Positions 56,383 to 64,000 of a stretch of DNA of 64,000 nucleotides are shown piece after piece. The stretch is from assembly GCA_017546025.1 (NCBI GenBank), contig JAFYYS010000029.1, forward strand, positions 1 to 64,000. Reading direction: 5' to 3'. The position numbers were made by a program, and so were the translations under genes. Each line of letters opens with the position of its first letter. Within the stretch, counting starts at the first letter, position 1. The notes below the pieces were generated by a model. It was not told the DNA's origin. It ran no database searches and worked only from the letters and a program-made list of their open reading frames with translations. Source of the DNA: Lachnospiraceae bacterium (GTDB lineage: Bacteria > Bacillota > Clostridia > Lachnospirales > Lachnospiraceae).

Positions 56383-56601
56383 TTACAGATAAATCTCACA
56401 GTCGTCTTCGACCTTCTTGCAGTTTTTGAGAACTTCCTTCATAACCGCCTTCGCATCGGCACCGTCCTCAAATTCCACATTCATCTTCAGTGCCATGAAG
56501 TTCACAACGGCGTCCTTGACGCCTGCCGTCTTCTTGGCAGCCTCTTCCATCTTGTTGGCGCAGTTTGCGCAATCCACTTCGATCTTGTAACTCTTTTTCA
56601 T
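56383..56601 (-). CDS. Small heavy-metal-binding (HMA) protein
   Basis: 72 aa with one ferredoxin-like HMA fold: YKIEVDCANCANKMEEAAKK, the CxxC metal site with Asp in front as in Zn/Cd-type domains (instead of the Cu-type MTC), and NFMALKMNVEFEDG. It acts as the detached N-terminal domain or chaperone for the ATPase downstream. Start at 56601 has GGAGG upstream; the longer in-frame start overlaps the operator. Confidence 0.9.
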   Translation of the reverse strand: MKKSYKIEVDCANCANKMEEAAKKTAGVKDAVVNFMALKMNVEFEDGADAKAVMKEVLKNCKKVEDDCEIYL

Positions 56602-56619
56602 ATCCTTTATACCTCCGAT

Positions 56620-56647
56620 ATATGAACAATCATTCATTTGTTCATAT
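56620..56647. promoter_or_regulatory. ArsR/SmtB-type operator
   Basis: ATATGAACAA...TTGTTCATAT inverted repeat, overlapping the -10 of the promoter at 56646-56674. It fits the known 12-2-12-type sites of CadC/CzrA proteins, and the repressor gene is in the same locus. Confidence 0.85.
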
Positions 56648-56674
56648 AATACACCGATCTTACTCTTCTGTCAA
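56646..56674 (-). promoter_or_regulatory. Promoter of the metal-efflux operon
   Basis: Minus strand TTGACA (56669-56674), 17-nt spacer, TATTAT (56646-56651); the -10 touches the ArsR operator. Confidence 0.85.
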
Positions 56675-56687
56675 GAGGAAAATGAGA

Positions 56688-56752
56688 CGAATCTTTCAGA
56701 TTTCTCTGATCCCGCCCTTCTCTGTTCGTGGTGGGGCCGGGTCACATTTTCC
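56688..56752. repeat. Inverted pair of the GGAAAATGTGAC word
   Basis: GGAAAATGAGAC (56688-56699) and GTCACATTTTCC (56741-56752) are inverted copies, eleven of twelve bases matching, about 41 bp apart in non-coding sequence. Confidence 0.6.
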
Positions 56753-56780
56753 AGCACCCTGTCCAATCCCCGTAAACGAC

Positions 56781-56807
56781 AAAAAGCGGCACACCCGTGT
56801 CGCTTTT
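56781..56807 (-). terminator. Terminator of cysK
   Basis: AAAAGCG.CAC/GTG.CGCTTTT stem-loop with TTTTTG on the minus strand, about 90 bp after the cysK stop. Confidence 0.75.
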
Positions 56808-56894
56808 CGTCGGCTTATTATGTAATTGGTATGGTTTCGAAATTTCTTTCGTAATCGGTATGATTTAATGATTCCTCGATGGTCGGTTACTCAC

Positions 56895-57830
56895 TTATGC
56901 CTCGGTGAAAAGAGGTGTGGAGTAATAGCGGTCACCGCTGTCAGGAAGAAGGGCAACGATTACCTTGCCGGCGTTCTCCGGTCTCTTGGCAAGCTCGATG
57001 GCGCTGAAGAGAGCAGCACCGGAGGAGATGCCAACCGAAATGCCTTCGGCCTTTGCAAGGAGCTTAGCGGTTTCAAAAGCGTCCTCATTGGCCACAGGAA
57101 GAACCTCGTCATAAACCTTGGTGTTCAAAACATCCGGGACAAATCCTGCGCCGATACCCTGAATCTTGTGCGGGCCGGCATGACCCTCGGAAAGAACCGG
57201 AGAAGTTGCGGGCTCAACAGCCACAACCTTAACGGCAGGATTCTTCTCCTTCAGATACTCACCTACACCGGTAACAGTACCGCCGGTACCGACGCCGCCC
57301 GTGAAGATGTCAACCTTTCCATCGGTATCGTACCAGATTTCGGGACCGGTCGTAGCTCTGTGAGCAGCAGGGTTCGCAGGGTTGATAAACTGTCCGGGAA
57401 TGTAGCTTCCGGGAATCTCCGCAGCAAGTTCTTCTGCCTTGGCGATGGCACCCTTCATGCCCTTTGCGCCTTCGGTAAGAACGATTTCTGCGCCGTAAGC
57501 CTTCAGAATGTTTCTGCGCTCCACGCTCATCGTCTCAGGCATCGTCAGAATAATCCGATAGCCCTTTGCAGCAGCAATTGCAGCAAGACCGATACCGGTA
57601 TTACCGGAAGTGGGCTCGATGATGACACTGCCCTCATGCAGAAGACCCTTGGCCTCCGCATCCTCAATCATCGCCTTCGCGATACGGTCCTTAACACTGC
57701 CGGCGGGATTGAAGTATTCAAGCTTAACGAGTACGGTTGCCTTCAGATCCAGCTTCTTCTCAATTCTCGTAACCTCAACCAGAGGTGTATTTCCAATCAG
57801 TTCAATAGCTCCCTTGTAAATCTTAGACAT
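56895..57830 (-). CDS. cysK: Cysteine synthase A
   Basis: O-acetylserine plus sulfide to cysteine, PLP-dependent. 311 aa: [24 protein letters not shown] (PLP Lys), [32 protein letters not shown] and [10 protein letters not shown] are all in place. Start at 57830 has GGAGGG upstream. Own promoter at 57858, own terminator. It is divided from metY by a palindromic-repeat cluster, and both serve sulfide assimilation. Confidence 0.97.
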
Positions 57831-57857
57831 TTTAAGTGCCCTCCTTGAATTATTATC

Positions 57858-57886
57858 ATTTTATCTTATTCAACTGTTTTCGTCAA
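57858..57886 (-). promoter_or_regulatory. Promoter of cysK
   Basis: Minus strand TTGACG (57881-57886), 17-nt spacer, TAAAAT (57858-57863). Confidence 0.72.
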
Positions 57887-57900
57887 TCTCCGCCTCTCAG

Positions 57901-58290
57901 CGGGTTGCGCCCGGCCGCTGTGCACCATATGGTGCTGCGGCGGGCCAGTTCCGCCGTGTCACCCGTCAAGGTTCCACGCCGGGTCGTCCCGGCCGCTGTA
58001 CACCATGTGATGCTGCGGCGGGCAGTTCCGGTCGACTAACCATCTGCTTCACCCGCACAGTCAGGTGCGTTTCTGCGGAACTCGCTTCGCTCAAACAGTC
58101 CTCGAAACGCCCCATGCGGCTTCGCAGATGTTAAGTCGACAGTTGACGCGCAATCGCGTCAGCCGTCAATCCCCGCCACAGCATCACAGATGCAACACCG
58201 GCCGGGGCAACCCGCTGAATCATCTCATGGGTGACACGGGTTTATTCAATCCCCGCCGCAGCGCCACAGCTGCATCAGCGGCCGGGCGCA
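57901..58290. repeat. Cluster of palindromic (REP/BIME-like) repeats
   Basis: Non-coding, G+C-rich. Four related copies of a roughly 35-bp imperfect palindrome: 57911-57944 and 57989-58022 in one direction (GGCCGCTGT...CTGCGGCGGG), 58171-58206 and 58251-58286 inverted (CCCCGCC...GGCCGG). Also paired are GTGTCACCC (about 57956) and GGGTGACAC (about 58229), and GGGTTGC/GCAACCC next to copies 1 and 3. Not protein coding. It could be a miniature mobile element, a nucleoid or gyrase site, or an mRNA end structure. Confidence 0.75.
58031..58140. repeat. Nested inverted repeat inside the cluster
   Basis: Outer arms GTCGACTAACCATCTGC (58031-58047) and GCAGATGTTAAGTCGAC (58124-58140), fifteen of seventeen matching; inner arms GCGTTTC (58067-58073) and GAAACGC (58104-58110). 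The arrangement resembles a small transposable element with subterminal repeats; no ORF inside. Confidence 0.6.
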
Positions 58291-58358
58291 TCACAGCAGG
58301 GATTTCAGATTTCATAAAGATTGATTGAAGAATCAATCACCATGTTCAGATATGTTGT

Positions 58359-59648
58359 TTATACGTTAGCAGCTGCAGCAAAACCTGCATCGAGGTCGGC
58401 GATCAGGTCGTCTACATGCTCGGTACCGATGGAAAGACGAATGGTGCTCTTGGTAATACCTGTGTCAAGCAGTTCCTCGTCGGAAAGCTGTGAGTGCGTC
58501 GTCGAAGCGGGATGGATAACAAGGCTCTTTACGTCTGCAACGTTAGCAAGCAGGGAGAAGATCTTCAGGGCGTCGATGAAAGCCCAGGCTTCCTTCTGGC
58601 CGCCGCGGATATCGAAGGTGAAGATTGAGCCGCCGCCGTTCGGGAAGTACTTCTCGTAAAGGGCGTGATCCGGATGGTTTGCAACGGAAGGATGGTTAAC
58701 CTTCACAACCTGCGGATGATGGCTTAAGTACTCAACAATCTTCTTTGTATTTTCCACATGGCGCTCAACGCGAAGGGAAAGGGTCTCGATGCCCTGCAGA
58801 AGCAGGAATGCGTTGAACGGGGAAATGCTGGCGCCGGTGTCGCGAAGAAGAATCGCACGGATGTAGGTCGTGAAAGCAGCGGGGCCGACAACGTCGTAGA
58901 AGGAAACGCCGTGGTAGCTCGGGTTCGGAGCGGCGATGTTCGGGTATTTGCCGCTGGCTGCCCAGTTGAACTTACCGGACTCAACGATGATGCCACCGAG
59001 CGTCGTGCCGTGACCGCCGAGGAACTTCGTTGCGGAGTGAACGACGATGTCAGCGCCGTGCTCAATCGGACGGAACAGATAAGGGGTTCCGAAAGTGTTA
59101 TCAACTACAAGCGGAAGGCCGTGACGGTGTGCGATTTCTGCAATCGCATCTACATCCGGAAGGTCGCTGTTCGGGTTGCCGAGTGTCTCGAGGAAGATGG
59201 CTCTCGTATCAGCCTGGATGGCATCCTCAACCTCTTTCAGGTTTCTCGTGTCAACGAAGGTAGCGGTGATATTGTAAAGCGGAAGCGTGTGCTCCAAAAG
59301 GTTGTAGGTTCCGCCGTAGATCGTCTTCTGCGCTACGATATGACCGCCGTTAGCGGCAAGTGCTTCAATCGTGTAAGAGATGGCTGCTGCACCGGAAGCA
59401 ACTGCAAGTGCTGCGCTGCCGCCTTCAAGGGCTGCAACTCTTTCTTCGAGAACGCCCTGCGTCGTGTTGGTGAGACGGCCGTAAATGTTACCGGCATCTG
59501 CAAGACCGAAACGGTCTGCTGCATGTTTTGCATTATGGAATACGTAAGCTGCTGTCTGGTAAATCGGAACCGCTCTCGAATCGGTAGCGGGGTCTGCCTG
59601 TTCCTGTCCTACATGTAACTGAAGTGTTTCAAAACGATAGTTGCTCAT
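58359..59648 (-). CDS. metY: O-acetylhomoserine sulfhydrylase
   Basis: PLP enzyme of the Cys/Met metabolism family making homocysteine from O-acetylhomoserine and sulfide. 429 aa: YGRLTNTTQGVLEERVAALE, ASGAAAISYTIEAL, QKTIYGGTYNLLEHTLP, VVDNTFGTPYLFRPIEHG, HSATKFLGGHGTTLGG with the PLP Lys. Start at 59648 follows AAAGGAG. The leader has a Cys-codon small ORF and terminator, so cysteine level probably controls it. Confidence 0.96.
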   Translation of the reverse strand: MSNYRFETLQLHVGQEQADPATDSRAVPIYQTAAYVFHNAKHAADRFGLADAGNIYGRLTNTTQGVLEERVAALEGGSAALAVASGAAAISYTIEALAANGGHIVAQKTIYGGTYNLLEHTLPLYNITATFVDTRNLKEVEDAIQADTRAIFLETLGNPNSDLPDVDAIAEIAHRHGLPLVVDNTFGTPYLFRPIEHGADIVVHSATKFLGGHGTTLGGIIVESGKFNWAASGKYPNIAAPNPSYHGVSFYDVVGPAAFTTYIRAILLRDTGASISPFNAFLLLQGIETLSLRVERHVENTKKIVEYLSHHPQVVKVNHPSVANHPDHALYEKYFPNGGGSIFTFDIRGGQKEAWAFIDALKIFSLLANVADVKSLVIHPASTTHSQLSDEELLDTGITKSTIRLSIGTEHVDDLIADLDAGFAAAANV

Positions 59649-59718
59649 TGTTATAATCTCCTTTGATTTTCAAGTTTGTTTTTTGGTTTGGTTTTTGTTT
59701 TCGGCTTCAACCGGGCAT

Positions 59719-59755
59719 AAAAAAGGCCCGGGGCTTCATTTCGAATCTCCCGGGC
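59719..59755 (-). terminator. Attenuator terminator upstream of metY
   Basis: GCCCGGG/CCCGGGC stem, loop of 16 nt, CTTTTTT on the minus strand. Its 5' arm GCCCGGGAG (59747-59755) is the exact complement of CTCCCGGGC inside the upstream leader ORF (59834-59842). Confidence 0.9.
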
Positions 59756-59775
59756 TCAGGCATCATAACAATGTG

Positions 59776-59898
59776 TCAACATCGTTCTTCGGTATGTTCG
59801 GAAGCGCAATCGAACGCACCGGCCAATTTTTGTGCCCGGGAGTTAAGCATTCGACAACACCACATGTAAGAAGCATTGGAAGTAATAACTGCGTTCAT
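59776..59898 (-). CDS. 40-residue cysteine-codon leader peptide of metY
   Basis: ATG at 59898 with AAAGGAG 7 nt upstream; st stop TGA at 59776. Two adjacent Cys codons at residues 14-15 (MWCCRM), one at residue 31 and one as the last codon before the stop. The bases coding Ser-Arg-Ala right after the Cys pair can pair with the terminator's 5' arm. A ribosome waiting for Cys-tRNA would leave them free and so prevent termination: classic attenuation. Not detectable by length-limited gene finders. Confidence 0.82.
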   Translation of the reverse strand: MNAVITSNASYMWCCRMLNSRAQKLAGAFDCASEHTEERC

Positions 59899-59907
59899 TG
59901 TGCTCTC

Positions 59908-59943
59908 CTTTCTGAGAACCGAAACCGTTTTGTTCGGTGCTCT
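59908..59943 (-). repeat. 5' hairpin of the metY leader
   Basis: GAGA..ACCGAA / TTCGGT..TCTC stem-loop between the promoter and the leader-peptide ribosome site. Confidence 0.55.
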
Positions 59944-59960
59944 CAATCGATGTTGGTGTC

Positions 59961-59989
59961 ATATTAACACTATTAACCTACTATGTCAA
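59961..59989 (-). promoter_or_regulatory. Promoter of metY with A/T-rich upstream element
   Basis: Minus strand TTGACA (59984-59989), 17-nt spacer, TAATAT (59961-59966). Upstream bases 59990-60018 are runs of A and T on the minus strand, like an UP element. Confidence 0.78.
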
Positions 59990-60015
59990 TAGGTAATTTG
60001 AAATTTTTTATTTTT

Positions 60016-60570
60016 TTATTTGATGTCCTTCCGCCAGGTCGCCGGCTTAAACTCATGAAGGATCGGGAGAAGTCTCTGATCGACGTCAATCTTCAATACG
60101 GAGTTGAAGTTGTTGGTCGCAATCATCTGTCCGGCAAAGCCTACGATTACAACAATCTCCTGATCGGTGAAGTAACCGTGCAGCTTGTCAAACAGCGCAT
60201 CGGAAACAGCCGTCGGATTCTTAACGATCTGCTGTGCAAGGGAAACGAGGACCTGCTCCTTCTCATCGTAAACAAGGTTGTTCGGGTCAAGGCCGAGCCC
60301 CTTCACGTCGCTGATGAAGAACAGCGAGCACAGCTGGCAGGAGTTGGTCGTGGAAATCGCGTGCGCATAAAGGATTGCGTCCTTCTCGCCGATGACCTCA
60401 ACAAGGCGGTTCCAGGAGGTGTACCAACCCATATAGGCATCGTACGTTGCCGCGTCGTTCAAAAGTCCCTTCTTCATATTCGTTACGGCGTTTCTGCCCG
60501 CCAATTCGTCATAGCGCACCTTCTCTGCGCCGGTTACTTCGTTCTGTTCCGTCAAATGAATTCTGGCCAT
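60016..60570 (-). CDS. Carboxymuconolactone-decarboxylase-family (AhpD-like) protein
   Basis: 184 aa, all-helical. TTNSCQLCSLFFISDVK has the CxxC with a downstream SLFF, as in the AhpD/CMD family, whose members are peroxidases or decarboxylases; VGFAGQMIATNNFNSVLKID follows. Redox role inferred. Start at 60570 has GGAGA upstream. It lies between an alcohol dehydrogenase and metY, with an inverted GGAAAATG pair just upstream. Confidence 0.84.
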   Translation of the reverse strand: MARIHLTEQNEVTGAEKVRYDELAGRNAVTNMKKGLLNDAATYDAYMGWYTSWNRLVEVIGEKDAILYAHAISTTNSCQLCSLFFISDVKGLGLDPNNLVYDEKEQVLVSLAQQIVKNPTAVSDALFDKLHGYFTDQEIVVIVGFAGQMIATNNFNSVLKIDVDQRLLPILHEFKPATWRKDIK

Positions 60571-60600
60571 GTTTCTGTTCTCCTTTTTCTTTATTATTGT

Positions 60601-60631
60601 GGAAAATGCGACGCCTTCCGTCCCATTTTCC
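60601..60631. repeat. Hairpin built from two inverted GGAAAATG words
   Basis: GGAAAATGCGACG (60601-60613) and CGTCCCATTTTCC (60619-60631) pair over 12 of 13 positions with a 5-nt loop. Confidence 0.7.
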
Positions 60632-60654
60632 AATTTTATATTCTTCCCAATGGT

Positions 60655-61815
60655 TTAAATTGCCAGCTTCAGGATGTCCTGAATGGCCTCTGCCGTTAAC
60701 GGCAGATAGTGTCCGACGGCTCCGTTTCTCGTGGCACGCTTTGCCATTACCGCAAAGTCGTCCGTGCCGATGCCGAGCCCGGTGAGCGTCGTTTTAAGCG
60801 ACAGCTTCTTAAAGAAACGTTCCAGCTCGTCGGCCAGAATGTATGCTCTCTCCTTTTCGTTATATAGGAAGCTGTCGGCTCCGAACACGCGGGTTGCAAG
60901 GAGCGCCGGCCTCCAGGGCTTCCGCTCCGCCATGTATTTGGTCCATGCGACCAGAACAACGGCCATGCCTTCTCCGTGTGTGATGTTGTACTGCGCGGAG
61001 AGCTCATGCTCAATCCTGTGCGAACCCCAGTCCGCCCGTCGTCCCGCGTCGAGGTAATTGTTGTGTGCAACGCTCGCAAGCCATTGCAGCTCACCTCTTG
61101 CGTTGATATCCGTCGGGTCCTTCAAAAGCCGGTCCGCATTAACCTGCAGGGCACGGATTGCACCCTCAATTAAAAAGTCGGTTGTGTCCGAATGCAGCTC
61201 GTCGGAGAAGTACCGTTCCAGCAGATGAGCCAGAACATCGGCAACTCCGACGGCTGTCTGGTACGCCGGCAGGTTCGCCGTGTACCGCGGATTCATGACG
61301 GCGAACCGGGGAATGATCCGGTCGTCCTCAAATCCGAGCTTCCACTCTCCGTTCGAGAGGATTGCGGCGTTGGAGGTTTCCGATCCGCTTGAAGCGGTTG
61401 TGGCGATGACGCCGATCGGCAGCACCTGCTTCGGAGAAACTCCCTTTTCAAAGAAGTCCCACACATCCCCCTCATAGGGAATGCCGAGGGCAACTGCCTT
61501 GGCCGTATCAATCGAACTTCCGCCGCCGACTGCCAGGACGAAGTCCACCTTGTCCTTCTTGCCCTGCGCAACCAGCTTCCGCACAAGATCGATTCCGGGA
61601 TTGGGGACCACGTCCCCGTTTTCGGAAAATGCTACGCCCAACTCCTTTACGGCAGCCTTAACCGCATCGTAGATTCCGAGTTTCTTAATGAAGTCTCCGC
61701 TGTATACGAGCAGAAGCGATGTTACACCGTGCTCCCGGAGGAGTTCAGCGAGCTTTAGCTCGCTTCCCTCTCCGAACACGATCTTAGCCGGATTGTAATA
61801 TGTAAATCCTATCAT
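60655..61815 (-). CDS. Iron-containing alcohol dehydrogenase
   Basis: 386 aa, same family as the gene at 52624 but clearly diverged. VGGGSSIDTAKAVALG binds NAD(P); TTASSGSETSNAA; iron ligands in VADVLAHLLERYF and HRIEHELSAQYNITHGEGMA. Reduces aldehydes or ketones during fermentation. ATG at 61815; the ribosome site is GAGGAAACGGA and the start lies within a GGAAAATG word. Confidence 0.92.
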   Translation of the reverse strand: MIGFTYYNPAKIVFGEGSELKLAELLREHGVTSLLLVYSGDFIKKLGIYDAVKAAVKELGVAFSENGDVVPNPGIDLVRKLVAQGKKDKVDFVLAVGGGSSIDTAKAVALGIPYEGDVWDFFEKGVSPKQVLPIGVIATTASSGSETSNAAILSNGEWKLGFEDDRIIPRFAVMNPRYTANLPAYQTAVGVADVLAHLLERYFSDELHSDTTDFLIEGAIRALQVNADRLLKDPTDINARGELQWLASVAHNNYLDAGRRADWGSHRIEHELSAQYNITHGEGMAVVLVAWTKYMAERKPWRPALLATRVFGADSFLYNEKERAYILADELERFFKKLSLKTTLTGLGIGTDDFAVMAKRATRNGAVGHYLPLTAEAIQDILKLAI

Positions 61816-61874
61816 TTTCCGTTTCCTCTTTTCGAATCGATATGCTCCGCGTGGAGCGGTCTGATCTGTTCTTA

Positions 61875-62687
61875 TTACTTAAGCGGTACAACGGCACCGT
61901 CGTATTTGCCTTCGATGTACTTCTTAACGTCTTCGCTCTGAAGAACCTCTACAAGAACCTTCAAAGCTTCGTTATCCTTCTTGGCCGCCGTGGTGGCAAT
62001 GATGTTGCCGTAGGTCTGTGCGGCAAGTCCGTCGTTGGCCTCAACAGCAAGTGCCTGGCTTACATGAAGACCGCCTTCAATTGCGTAGTTACCGTTGATG
62101 ACTGCTACATCCACGTCGGGAAGTGCTGCTACAAGCTGCTCCGGAGCAAGCTCTTTAAACTGAATGTTCTTCGGGTTGGAAGCGATGTCGCCGATTGTTG
62201 CGGTGATGCCTGCGCCGTCCTTCAGGGTGATGATGCCTTCCTGTGCGAGCAGCAGAAGTGCTCTTGCCTCATTCGTTACATTGTTGGGAACTGCGATGAT
62301 TGCACCATCCGGAAGGTCCTTTAAATCCTTGGTTCTACCGGCGTAGACTCCGAACGGCTCATAGTGAATTGCACCGATGGAAACGAGGCTGCTGCCATTC
62401 TCTTTGTTGAACTGCTCAAGATACGGAACATGCTGGAAATAGTTGGCGTCAAGGCTGCCCTCGATAACACCGGTGTTCGGGGTAATGGAATCTTCAAGCT
62501 TAACGATTTCAAGCGTGATGCCCTTTTCCTTCAGAATGGGCTTTACGTATTCGAGGATTTCTGCGTGGGGAACAATGTTTGCGCCGACCTTAATGGTCTT
62601 GTCGTCTTTCTTTTCGTCCTTACCGCATGCGGTAAATGCCAGGACAATGATGAGAGTAAGTAAGGTAATGAGTGCTTTCTTTTTCAT
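61875..62687 (-). CDS. metQ: Methionine-binding lipoprotein
   Basis: 270 aa, NlpA/MetQ family. Lipobox LAFTAC at residues 16-21 anchors it outside the membrane. KVGANIVPHAEILEYVKPIL, DANYFQHVPYLEQFN, VPNNVTNEARALLLLAQEG and INGNYAIEGGL are typical ligand-site segments. Captures methionine for MetNI. GGAG upstream. The 103-bp gap to metI is T-rich with only a weak GTCCC/GGGAC stem. Confidence 0.95.
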   Translation of the reverse strand: MKKKALITLLTLIIVLAFTACGKDEKKDDKTIKVGANIVPHAEILEYVKPILKEKGITLEIVKLEDSITPNTGVIEGSLDANYFQHVPYLEQFNKENGSSLVSIGAIHYEPFGVYAGRTKDLKDLPDGAIIAVPNNVTNEARALLLLAQEGIITLKDGAGITATIGDIASNPKNIQFKELAPEQLVAALPDVDVAVINGNYAIEGGLHVSQALAVEANDGLAAQTYGNIIATTAAKKDNEALKVLVEVLQSEDVKKYIEGKYDGAVVPLK

Positions 62688-62790
62688 GATGATGAATCTC
62701 CTTGGTTTTTTTTATTTTGTATGATTTGTTTTTTGTTTTATATAAACGGTCCCTTCGCATTCCGGATATGGTCGGGACGGGTTTATCCTT

Positions 62791-63444
62791 TTAACTCTTC
62801 CGGCGAAGTTTTGCGAGCAGGCCGCCGATAGCCTGGATGAGCATTACCATGATGACCAGAAGGAGTACGGTCGTCCAAAGGACGTCCTTCTGATAGCGGT
62901 AATAGCCGTACTGTAAAGCGATGGCACCGAGGCCGCCGCCTCCAATCACACCTGCCATTGCGGAGTAGCCGAGCACCGTTGCGACATTGATTGCCGCCCC
63001 CTGAAGCAGGGAGGGTGCCGCCTCCGGCAGGATGAAGTGTGTGATGATATGAAAGGGCGAAGCGCCCATGGAAGTTGCCGCCTCAATGATTCCGGGCTGC
63101 ACCTCGCAAAGCGAGGCTTCCACCATTCTTGCCACAATCGGAATGGCTCCGACCGTGAGGGGTACAATTGCCGCCGTCGTTCCGATGGACGAACCTGTCA
63201 CCCATCTGGTGAACGGAATCAGCAAAACGAGTAAAATCAGGAACGGTAAGGACCGCATGACATTTACCACAAAGCCGATTGCGTAATTGACGGCGCGGTT
63301 CTGAAGGAGCCTGTCCTTTGCCGTTGCGTATAACAGGATTCCGAGCGGAAGGCCGACTGCGTATGCAAACAGGGAGGACCAGCCGGTCATCTTAAGCGTC
63401 TCGAAGACACCGTTTTTAATGGCTTCTATGATGTAATCGCTCAT
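62791..63444 (-). CDS. metI: Methionine ABC transporter permease
   Basis: 217 aa, five membrane helices, inner-membrane component. The permease EAA loop reads EAATSMGASPFHIITHFILPEA. The protein order (MetN, MetI, MetQ) and the length fit the MetNI family. ATGA overlap with the metN stop couples translation. Confidence 0.95.
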   Translation of the reverse strand: MSDYIIEAIKNGVFETLKMTGWSSLFAYAVGLPLGILLYATAKDRLLQNRAVNYAIGFVVNVMRSLPFLILLVLLIPFTRWVTGSSIGTTAAIVPLTVGAIPIVARMVEASLCEVQPGIIEAATSMGASPFHIITHFILPEAAPSLLQGAAINVATVLGYSAMAGVIGGGGLGAIALQYGYYRYQKDVLWTTVLLLVIMVMLIQAIGGLLAKLRRKS

Positions 63445-64000
63445 CTCTCCACCTCCGACACTGCCAGGCCCTTGTTCTTGAAGTATTCGATGATGACGGT
63501 CCGGTCGATTTCATTGTCCGGAAGCTCAAGCACCATCTGCCCGTATCCGACGCCGCCCACGCTCTTCGTGTTGGCGCTTAAGATGTTCACCTTGCGTCCC
63601 GTCGATGCGACGAGGTCGGCGATGAACGGTTCCTTGGCGGACAGTCCGTCAAATACGATGCGGATCAGCCGGCTGTTCTCACGTGAAGGATCGAACGGAT
63701 TGCTCGGAAACACAAGCTTCTTGGCTGCCTTTGATTTCGGCGCCCGGAACACTTCCTTCACTTCACCGACTTCCGCAAGATTGCCGTCGTCGATGATGGC
63801 CACGCGGTCACAGATGCGTTCCACAACCGACATCTCATGGGTGATGATGACGATGGTCAGCTTCTGCTCCCGGTTAATCTTCTGCAAAAGCTCCAGAATC
63901 TCGCCGGTAATCTTCGGGTCGAGTGCGCTTGTCGCTTCGTCGCAGAGAAGCACTTTCGGGCTTGCCGCCAGTGCCCTGGCGATTGCCACTCTCTGTCGCT
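63441..64000 (-). CDS. metN: Methionine ABC transporter ATP-binding protein, C-terminal part
   Basis: Partial; the 5' end is beyond the right edge. Visible: the RQRVAIARALA region after the ABC signature, Walker B VLLCDEATSALDP, the H-loop VIITHEMSVVERI, and a C-terminal NIL domain (about residues 95-180 of the visible part) that binds methionine and inhibits the transporter when the cell is full. Walker A is not in the window. Confidence 0.95.
   Translation of the reverse strand, partial: RQRVAIARALAASPKVLLCDEATSALDPKITGEILELLQKINREQKLTIVIITHEMSVVERICDRVAIIDDGNLAEVGEVKEVFRAPKSKAAKKLVFPSNPFDPSRENSRLIRIVFDGLSAKEPFIADLVASTGRKVNILSANTKSVGGVGYGQMVLELPDNEIDRTVIIEYFKNKGLAVSEVER

Follow-up and report, generated by a model that had tools for sequence, protein, structure and literature searches.

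The metY gene of a Lachnospiraceae bacterium, on the minus strand of the 64,000-nt stretch of DNA that was analysed as a whole (the window), is the first gene behind a compact leader region and is followed by cysK. Read 5' to 3', the region upstream of metY contains a dyad over the -35 element, a promoter, a ribosome-binding site, a 40-codon ORF, a GC-rich hairpin, and a run of six T (Table 1). The ORF carries paired Cys codons before a sulfur-amino-acid gene, and it is most likely a decoy whose translation decides whether transcription stops early. A cysteine-sensing transcription attenuator had been proposed here in an earlier note, and the parts on which it was built were recovered in our analysis: the promoter, the 40-residue ORF with adjacent Cys codons, the antiterminator segment (arm A), and a terminator 5' arm (arm B) that is the exact complement of arm A. 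Arm A begins 14 and 17 nt past the starts of the two Cys codons, as had been stated, and the gap between the Cys pair and arm A is 11 nt. The promoter match was weak by itself, with 2 promoter-like sites in the promoter scan compared to 0.9 in shuffled sequences. The fold of the window's leader had a z of -2.94, which was equalled by one of 200 shuffles. The terminator hairpin of the metY leader escaped the simple terminator scan, its loop being longer than the limit of 8 used there. The observation is real and is larger in extent than first noted.

Table 1. Features of the leader region and the genes behind it (positions in the window).
Feature	Position	Strand	Description	Basis
Attenuator locus before metY	59994-59719	minus	promoter, leader ORF, arms A and B, terminator	
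Operator-like dyad, ACCTATTGACATAGTAGGT	59976..59994	minus	overlaps -35; candidate Rrf2-family (IscR/CymR-like) site	
Promoter	59961..59989	minus	TTGACA 59989-59984, 17 nt spacing, TAATAT 59966-59961	consensus of 123 leaders
Shine-Dalgarno of leader ORF	59910-59905	minus	AAGGAG	
Leader ORF	59776..59898	minus	40 codons, MNAVITSNASYMWCCRMLNSRAQKLAGAFDCASEHTEERC, stop TGA 59778-59776	conserved in relatives
Tandem regulatory Cys codons	59854..59859	minus	TGT TGT, then CGA ATG	
H1 5' arm, GUCGAAUGC	59847..59855	minus	candidate protector hairpin; overlaps second Cys codon	fold and complementarity tests
Antiterminator arm A, CTCCCGGGC	59834..59842	minus	inside leader ORF	
H1 inner pairing	59839-59836 with 59822-59819	minus	CCGG with CCGG; would sequester part of arm A	
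Antiterminator arm A2	59822..59824	minus	GGC; partner B2 GCC 59761-59759; 3 pairs only in the window's leader	family helix
Hairpin P3 within antiterminator	59790..59821	minus	59821-59811 with 59800-59790; mutually exclusive with H1	fold, swap test z -6.2
H1 3' arm, GCGUUCGAU	59809..59817	minus		fold
Arm B, GCCCGGGAG	59747..59755	minus	exact complement of A; doubles as terminator 5' arm	
Intrinsic terminator	59719..59755	minus	GCCCGGG 59755-59749 with CCCGGGC 59732-59726, T6 59724-59719	fold -17.4 kcal/mol
metY	58359..59648	minus	O-acetylhomoserine aminocarboxypropyltransferase (homocysteine synthase); first gene	TIGR01326, 607 bits
cysK	56895..57830	minus	cysteine synthase A; next gene downstream of metY	TIGR01139, 454 bits

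The occurrence of the leader in relatives was then considered. In a peptide search of 61 genomes, a leader-like match was present in 16 of the 22 same-genus genomes, own genome included, and two leader types were found in the genus, one before metY and a second before a cystathionine gamma-synthase/lyase-like gene. Both types are carried by the own genome, where the second copy lies just past the window end (C21:66618-66752; L002, L195). A DNA pattern drawn from the interior of the leader ORF (TGTTGTCGAATG, a gap, and TCCCGGRCA) matched at least 119 stretches, while the chance expectation is approximately 1 in 257 billion bases if equal base frequencies are assumed. Together with the earlier loci, these stretches gave a set of 150 distinct leaders. 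Selection for this set demanded the Cys pair, CGN ATG, and arm A; the start, the stop, arm B, the terminator, and the genes were left free. Of the 150 leaders, 149 have a readable ORF that spans the Cys pair; the exception (L007) starts at a contig end. Since the same ORF and arms recur in relatives, a chance origin is untenable.

A covariance model of the leader matched 18 of 22 genus, 48 of 397 family, 19 of 295 order, 11 of 291 class, and 5 of 398 phylum genomes, where the own genome is counted in each sample, some genomes are shared between samples, and the stricter filters of the large scans lose weak matches. The class-level match L213 looks spurious; it and the weak tblastn matches L019 and L022-L026 were set aside as spurious or leaderless. 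By record title, the cultured strains with the leader are Eubacterium ruminantium FB3002, [Clostridium] citroniae WAL-17108, Clostridium fessum, and Clostridium porci. Leader copies were also seen in records titled Phascolarctobacterium (L077), Eggerthellaceae (L108), and Succinivibrio (L139), which represent either horizontal transfer or mislabelled MAGs. Judged from its parts, the same putative switch recurs before many sulfur and uptake genes of gut and rumen Clostridia.

Arm B was complementary to arm A with a score of at least 19 in 145 of the 150 leaders and of at least 17 in 146. Of the five that fell short of 19, L106 and L136 are cut off by the sequence end, L086 scored 17, L061 has arm B nearer than the scanned range, and L155 shows no arm B; when L007, L166, and one copy in L080 were also dropped, 142 leaders were left for the stop-codon geometry. 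Since arm B had been located by its fit to arm A, the pairing was tested separately. De-duplicated sets of 113 and 91 leaders were used, and a hand-picked 50 (A3) and 55 (model alignment A4) were drawn from the 91.

The covariation of the antiterminator was strong for A:B, clear for P3, and modest for A2:B2. In the 113 leaders, pair A7-B2 was standard in 112 compared to 101.1 ± 1.3 with shuffled partners, and pair A5-B4 in all 113 compared to 110.1 ± 0.3; several other positions were invariant and uninformative. In the 55-sequence alignment, 91.0% of the antiterminator pairs (A:B, A2:B2, and P3) were standard, compared to 88.7 ± 0.3 in shuffles and 30-53% when the arms were slid. Twelve pairs had changed on both sides (5.7 ± 1.5 in shuffles), a number reached by none of 500 shuffles. 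Swapping the partners between leaders weakened A+A2:B2+B (z -9.5), P3 (z -6.2), and the terminator helix B:C (z -4.3). RNAalifold of 50 full leaders returned exactly ten A:B pairs, four of them with compensatory change, and A2:B2 at a fixed offset was modestly above the shuffles (best pair 74 of 91 compared to 68.0 ± 1.8). An intrinsic terminator is placed before the first gene, with an antiterminator that excludes it, as the A:B covariation indicates. A leader ORF not conserved in relatives had been named beforehand as an outcome that speaks against the attenuator; the ORF was found to be conserved, and arms A and B covary.

However, one step of the model in the earlier note did not survive. 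It had been supposed that normal translation covers arm A, but in the window's leader the stop codon lies 55 nt beyond arm A and 81 nt from where the Cys pair begins; a stop within 45 nt of the pair was seen in only 3 of the 142 leaders. Coverage of arm A by the ribosome alone as the general way to permit termination was therefore rejected, because the stops lie far beyond arm A. A finishing ribosome leaves arm A behind, so a second structure would be needed to keep it from arm B, and the covering step was replaced by a candidate protector hairpin, H1. What stood of the model was its kind, a ribosome-mediated attenuator with Cys codons before metY.

The stop codon precedes arm B in 142 of 142 leaders, with a gap of 9-69 nt, whereas the other two frames run into arm B in 40 and 31 of the 142. 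A ribosome at the stop codon would therefore leave arm B free, the closest cases excepted. When five leaders with a nearest start less than 15 nt away are left out, the Cys pair follows the start codon by 21-93 nt, and by 30-42 nt in 128 of the remaining 137. With a Cys codon in the A site, a stalled ribosome reaches approximately 12 nt ahead, and it would therefore cover the 5' arm of H1 and not arm A.

H1 pairs the second Cys codon and the following CGA AUG C with a stretch past arm A, and encloses part of arm A (CCGG). At least 5 bases of the Cys-codon region pair beyond arm A in 121 of 143 leaders (fewer than 5 in 22), and at least 5 bases of arm A are paired before arm B exists in 106 of 143. 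The H1 complementarity was -9.48 kcal/mol, compared to -5.86 ± 0.25 kcal/mol for shuffled sequence, and 83% of the cells were paired on the alignment compared to 27-41% when slid. No covariation of H1 was detected by the partner swap (z -0.4) or on the alignment; equally good swapped partners are expected if the 5' arm is nearly fixed. RNAalifold of the H1 region gave four pairs only (UGUC with GGCA) and did not return H1 as a consensus, and no special pairing was seen between region 1 and the stretch nearer the stop codon (z 1.3). Since its complementarity is conserved but does not covary, H1 is likely to act as the protector, with less certainty than attaches to the antiterminator.

To what extent equilibrium folding accounts for the choice between these structures was read from 138 leaders. 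The mean probability of A:B was 0.86 for a ribosome placed on the Cys codons, 0.52 for one placed on the stop codon, and 0.74 in the ribosome-free state, and it was higher in the stalled state than at the stop in 110 of the 138; the corresponding means for B:C were 0.09, 0.34, and 0.17. Before the 3' terminator arm exists, the mean A:B probabilities were 0.97, 0.91, and 0.95, respectively, a small contrast. In the window's metY leader, A:B reached 0.10 in the stalled state and 0.00 at the stop, B:C reached 0.70 and 0.79, and the terminator was thus favoured in both ribosome states; before the 3' arm exists, A:B was 0.90 in the stalled state and 0.78 at the stop. As the ribosome-free family favours A:B (0.74), H1 is not the equilibrium default, and H1 plus the terminator equals the full minimum-energy fold in only 1 of 143 leaders (mean -43.5 compared to -50.7 kcal/mol). 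Equilibrium folding was rejected as a sufficient account, its direction being right on average and not clear for the window's leader. On these models, the switch would have to be kinetic, with the fold chosen during transcription, in the window's copy and probably in the family at large.

Taken together, the leader is very probably a ribosome-mediated transcription attenuator with the availability of charged tRNA-Cys as its signal, as far as can be judged from the DNA. A ribosome would translate the short ORF while RNA polymerase makes the leader. When cysteine is sufficient, the ribosome should pass UGU UGU and halt at the stop codon, which in the window's leader is 55 nt past arm A, and the RNA around the Cys codons would fold behind it into H1 and hold arm A; arm B would then be free, the terminator would form, and metY-cysK would be off. 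When cysteine is short, the ribosome would wait at UGU UGU and cover the 5' arm of H1 but not arm A, so that arm A, with A2 and P3, could pair with arm B, block the terminator, and allow transcription of metY-cysK. Induction of metY by cysteine shortage is the prediction.

The peptide around the Cys codons is unusually conserved, and we considered whether the ribosome might instead be arrested by the nascent chain, as in the TnaC-type systems, with CCRM..SRA..AG stalling it in the exit tunnel on free cysteine or a sulfur compound. In the 45 leaders from the peptide search, in which any Cys or Arg codon was accepted, CGA and ATG were each present in 45 of 45, which would agree with a peptide arrest. 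However, those conserved residues that follow the Cys pair fall on the RNA arms (SRA on arm A; MAG on A2 and H1), and codons are kept where the code is free: TGT was used in 41 and 42 of the 45 at the two Cys positions and CGA in all of them, compared to 24% of the Cys codons and 7.3% of the Arg codons in the window background (44 long ORFs, some possibly not genes). The divergent leaders vary the residues around the Cys codons, and CGA is absent from L265, L269, and L279. Nascent-peptide arrest is therefore regarded as quite improbable. The near-invariance of CGA is nevertheless not fully accounted for by the attenuator model. A conserved reading frame would also be expected if the ORF encoded a small functional protein, but the N- and C-terminal parts vary freely and the conservation follows the RNA arms and codons, which makes a small protein very unlikely indeed. 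Of the ten leader peptides scanned, none matched an NCBIfam family, and Pfam yielded a single match, at chance level (E 0.062).

We also weighed whether the leader might be a riboswitch of a known class (T-box or SAM) in which an ORF is present by coincidence. T-boxes bind uncharged tRNA directly, without translation. The own genome has 10 T-box matches, five of them above the gathering score, although the metY contig, C21, has none, and in Clostridium perfringens sulfur genes are under the control of Cys T-boxes according to the accessible part of that study (PMC2940859). Against this, Rfam returned no family for positions 56500-64000 of the window up to E = 1, including T-box RF00230 and the SAM families, and a known class has next to no probability here.

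A downstream gene was assigned by a simple rule for 140 of the 150 leaders. BLAST clustering of these 140 targets gave 89 MetY/CGS-type enzymes, 37 solute-binding proteins, and 14 others, namely 3 peptidase T-like proteins, 3 amino acid ABC permeases, 2 cysK, 2 iron-containing alcohol dehydrogenases, and 4 singletons (a glycyl radical enzyme, an ABC ATPase, a LysR-like protein, and a probably spurious ORF, L052), the cysK, alcohol dehydrogenase, and LysR labels being assigned by eye. Classification by motif gave 72 MetY, 7 CGS/CGL-like, and 31 solute-binding proteins. A profile scan of 8 target representatives identified a solute-binding protein with a MetQ-like half and peptidase T-like, ABC permease, ABC ATPase, CGS/CGL-like, MetY-like, and (2S)-3-sulfopropanediol dehydratase-like proteins; the LysR-like representative had no profile match at 1e-20. 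cysS was absent among the ten target-cluster representatives. The regulatory Cys codons match the products of the targets, metY-cysK and other sulfur genes.

Some targets stand apart. The glycyl radical enzyme behind the Cys leader L048 is (2S)-3-sulfopropanediol dehydratase-like by a match over its first half only, which scored 703 bits (cut-off 1000). Its place behind a Cys leader hints that sulfonates may be scavenged when cysteine is short. The window itself holds an iron-containing alcohol dehydrogenase (60655-61815), look-alikes of which, identified by eye, lie directly behind the Cys leader in L140 and L159; this suggests a link of that enzyme to sulfur metabolism. The gene family behind L253, L254, L255, L266, and L271 had no NCBIfam match in the four members scanned, and a weak GST C-terminal Pfam match was found in L253 only.

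An adjacent Cys pair was rejected as a strict requirement, since single-Cys leaders exist. Eleven order- and class-level leaders without the pair keep a Cys codon near the site. All 40 fetched model-match regions keep Cys within approximately 5 codons of the R-M step, four after re-framing; these 40 include ordinary CC leaders and known places (L243 repeats L153), and the covariance model favours TGT, so that the retained Cys is supportive and not independent. As side observations, 52 of 142 leaders end in Arg-Cys, and Cys is more frequent from approximately the SRA alanine onward (274 of 2622 residues) than before the pair (14 of 1483), for which H1 may be part of the reason.

The codons just before the Cys pair were tabulated in 87 leaders (the 91 de-duplicated leaders minus four with a start less than 18 nt away). 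Position -1 was Met in 54, Cys in 20, and Trp in 6, and position -2 was Met in 38, Ala in 11, and Cys in 8. Met-rich variants also exist: MCMYMMRM in L253-L255, which belong to the own genus and precede a gene without a clear family, MMYMCMFRM in L270, and MCCMDRM in L273. L270 precedes a MetN-like gene, by a profile match over its 196 available residues, and L273 precedes one as judged by eye. Since Met is enriched beside the Cys pair and Met-rich forms exist, we proposed that these Met codons are regulatory too and that a shortage of charged tRNA-Met would also block termination, which extends the Cys attenuator and does not exclude it. Neither the DNA pattern nor the tested helices demand Met at these positions, although the peptide searches behind part of the leader set held Met there in part; a Met-rich divergent leader before a MetN-like gene (L270), and targets that serve Cys and Met supply alike, are also in its favour. 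However, Cys is present in every real leader read whereas Met at -1 is missing in 33 of the 87, a Met shortage should slow initiation on the leader as well, and the alternating Met-Cys leaders L202, L240, L245, and L267 precede solute-binding protein genes, which are not Met-specific. Dual sensing is thus a possibility to which we would give well under an even chance; it is rather unlikely on the present evidence.

The dyad over the -35 element, ACCTATTGACATAGTAGGT, had one match in the window where 0.01 were expected (up to 3 mismatches). An operator-like element of the loose pattern was present in 128 of 141 leaders, and CTATTGAC in 123 of 141. Exact copies of the pattern CCTANTGACANNGTAGG numbered three in the own genome, one upstream of each Cys leader and one upstream of a cysteine desulfurase-NifU pair. 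With two mismatches the pattern gave 5 matches compared to 27 for the reversed control, and therefore only the exact matches carry weight. The copy at the cysteine desulfurase-NifU pair (C22:12528-12544; about 3029-3045 in L239), at which no Cys leader ORF was seen, lies approximately 1.4 kb from the only Rrf2 gene found in the own genome (C22:13980-14372). This Rrf2 gene scores for both IscR and CymR, below the cut-off in each case, and the IscR and CymR motifs are described as similar in the accessible part of the relevant study (PMC3828012). Since the desulfurase operon has the operator and no leader ORF was seen there, operator and leader are separable. The attenuator is probably joined by a second control, an operator of the Rrf2 type at the promoter. 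That this operator alone regulates, the hairpin being a weak constitutive attenuator, would agree with the operator-like element in 128 of 141 leaders and its three exact genome copies, but would leave the covarying antiterminator and the placement of the stop codons without a role; we consider it improbable to about the same degree as peptide arrest.

The type of switch is already known, whereas the family appears to be new and is absent from Rfam, NCBIfam, and, beyond noise, Pfam. It was not described in the top-ranked open-licence literature, subscription papers being mostly outside that scope, and its absence from the literature is unproven. In the trp/his-type attenuators of enteric bacteria, tandem regulatory codons are combined with mutually exclusive protector, antiterminator, and terminator structures, and the stop codon lies before the terminator. 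The metY leader has the tandem codons, the mutually exclusive antiterminator and terminator segments, with H1 as a candidate protector, and the stop before the terminator in common with them, but arm A and both arms of H1 lie inside its ORF, the ORF goes on for 55 nt past arm A, and its antiterminator is composite (A:B, A2:B2, and P3). Canestrari et al. (2020) reportedly worked on actinobacterial Cys leader peptides. Leader ORFs with runs of Cys codons occur before cys operons in Mycobacterium and other Actinobacteria, and the accessible part of that report states that no conserved terminator hairpins were found (PMC1262725); those runs lie near the stop codon, whereas the metY leader has its Cys pair in the middle of the ORF and, farther on, an intrinsic terminator. 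For the Cys leaders of M. smegmatis, translation attenuation is given in the part of the account available (PMC13236596).

Among the closest published counterparts is the uORFC-8-2 motif, tandem-Cys leaders predicted before cysS in Rhodobacterales and read by their authors as ribosome-mediated attenuation (PMC8632094). As far as the available text of that description goes, it likewise has a short ORF with two tandem Cys codons at approximately positions 14-15, a stem that holds them, as H1 would, and an intrinsic terminator. It differs from the metY-leader family: uORFC-8-2 belongs to the Alphaproteobacteria, lies only before cysS, and uses mostly UGC, whereas the metY-leader family belongs to the Bacillota, lies before many sulfur operons, and uses mostly UGU.

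Most of what is known of cysteine control in Clostridia concerns T-boxes, S-boxes, and CymR-type regulators. The Cys T-boxes of Clostridium perfringens likewise attenuate the transcription of cysteine genes by the state of tRNA-Cys, but the metY leader has no T-box match; the same study, in the part accessible, notes that some clostridia are without certain Cys T-boxes and may use other mechanisms (PMC2940859). A regular leader-peptide attenuator in Firmicutes is represented by the His leader peptides of bacilli, before hisS paralogs, which concern another amino acid and other genes than the metY-leader family; in 2010, the accessible part of that report states, almost no leader-peptide systems were known outside Proteobacteria and Actinobacteria (PMC2965389).

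A broader reading, which we offer tentatively and hold to be slightly less probable than dual sensing itself, is that one homologous cassette over many sulfur operons and several Bacillota families reads Met and Cys by means of the codon run Met-(Met/Cys)-Cys-Cys. The cassette would have one form dominated by Cys and offshoots rich in Met, such as that before metN, and its promoter would be of the Rrf2/IscR type that the cysteine desulfurase operon also has. If this joint reading were true, iron-sulfur demand would set the start of transcription and amino acid supply its completion. The family offers a clean test of the joint reading of Met and Cys supply. The metY leader belongs to a widespread and alignable Cys attenuator with a large set of natural mutations. 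With its help, a sulfur regulon that takes in uptake genes and a sulfopropanediol dehydratase-like gene would be easier to annotate in rumen and gut bacteria from the DNA sequence alone.
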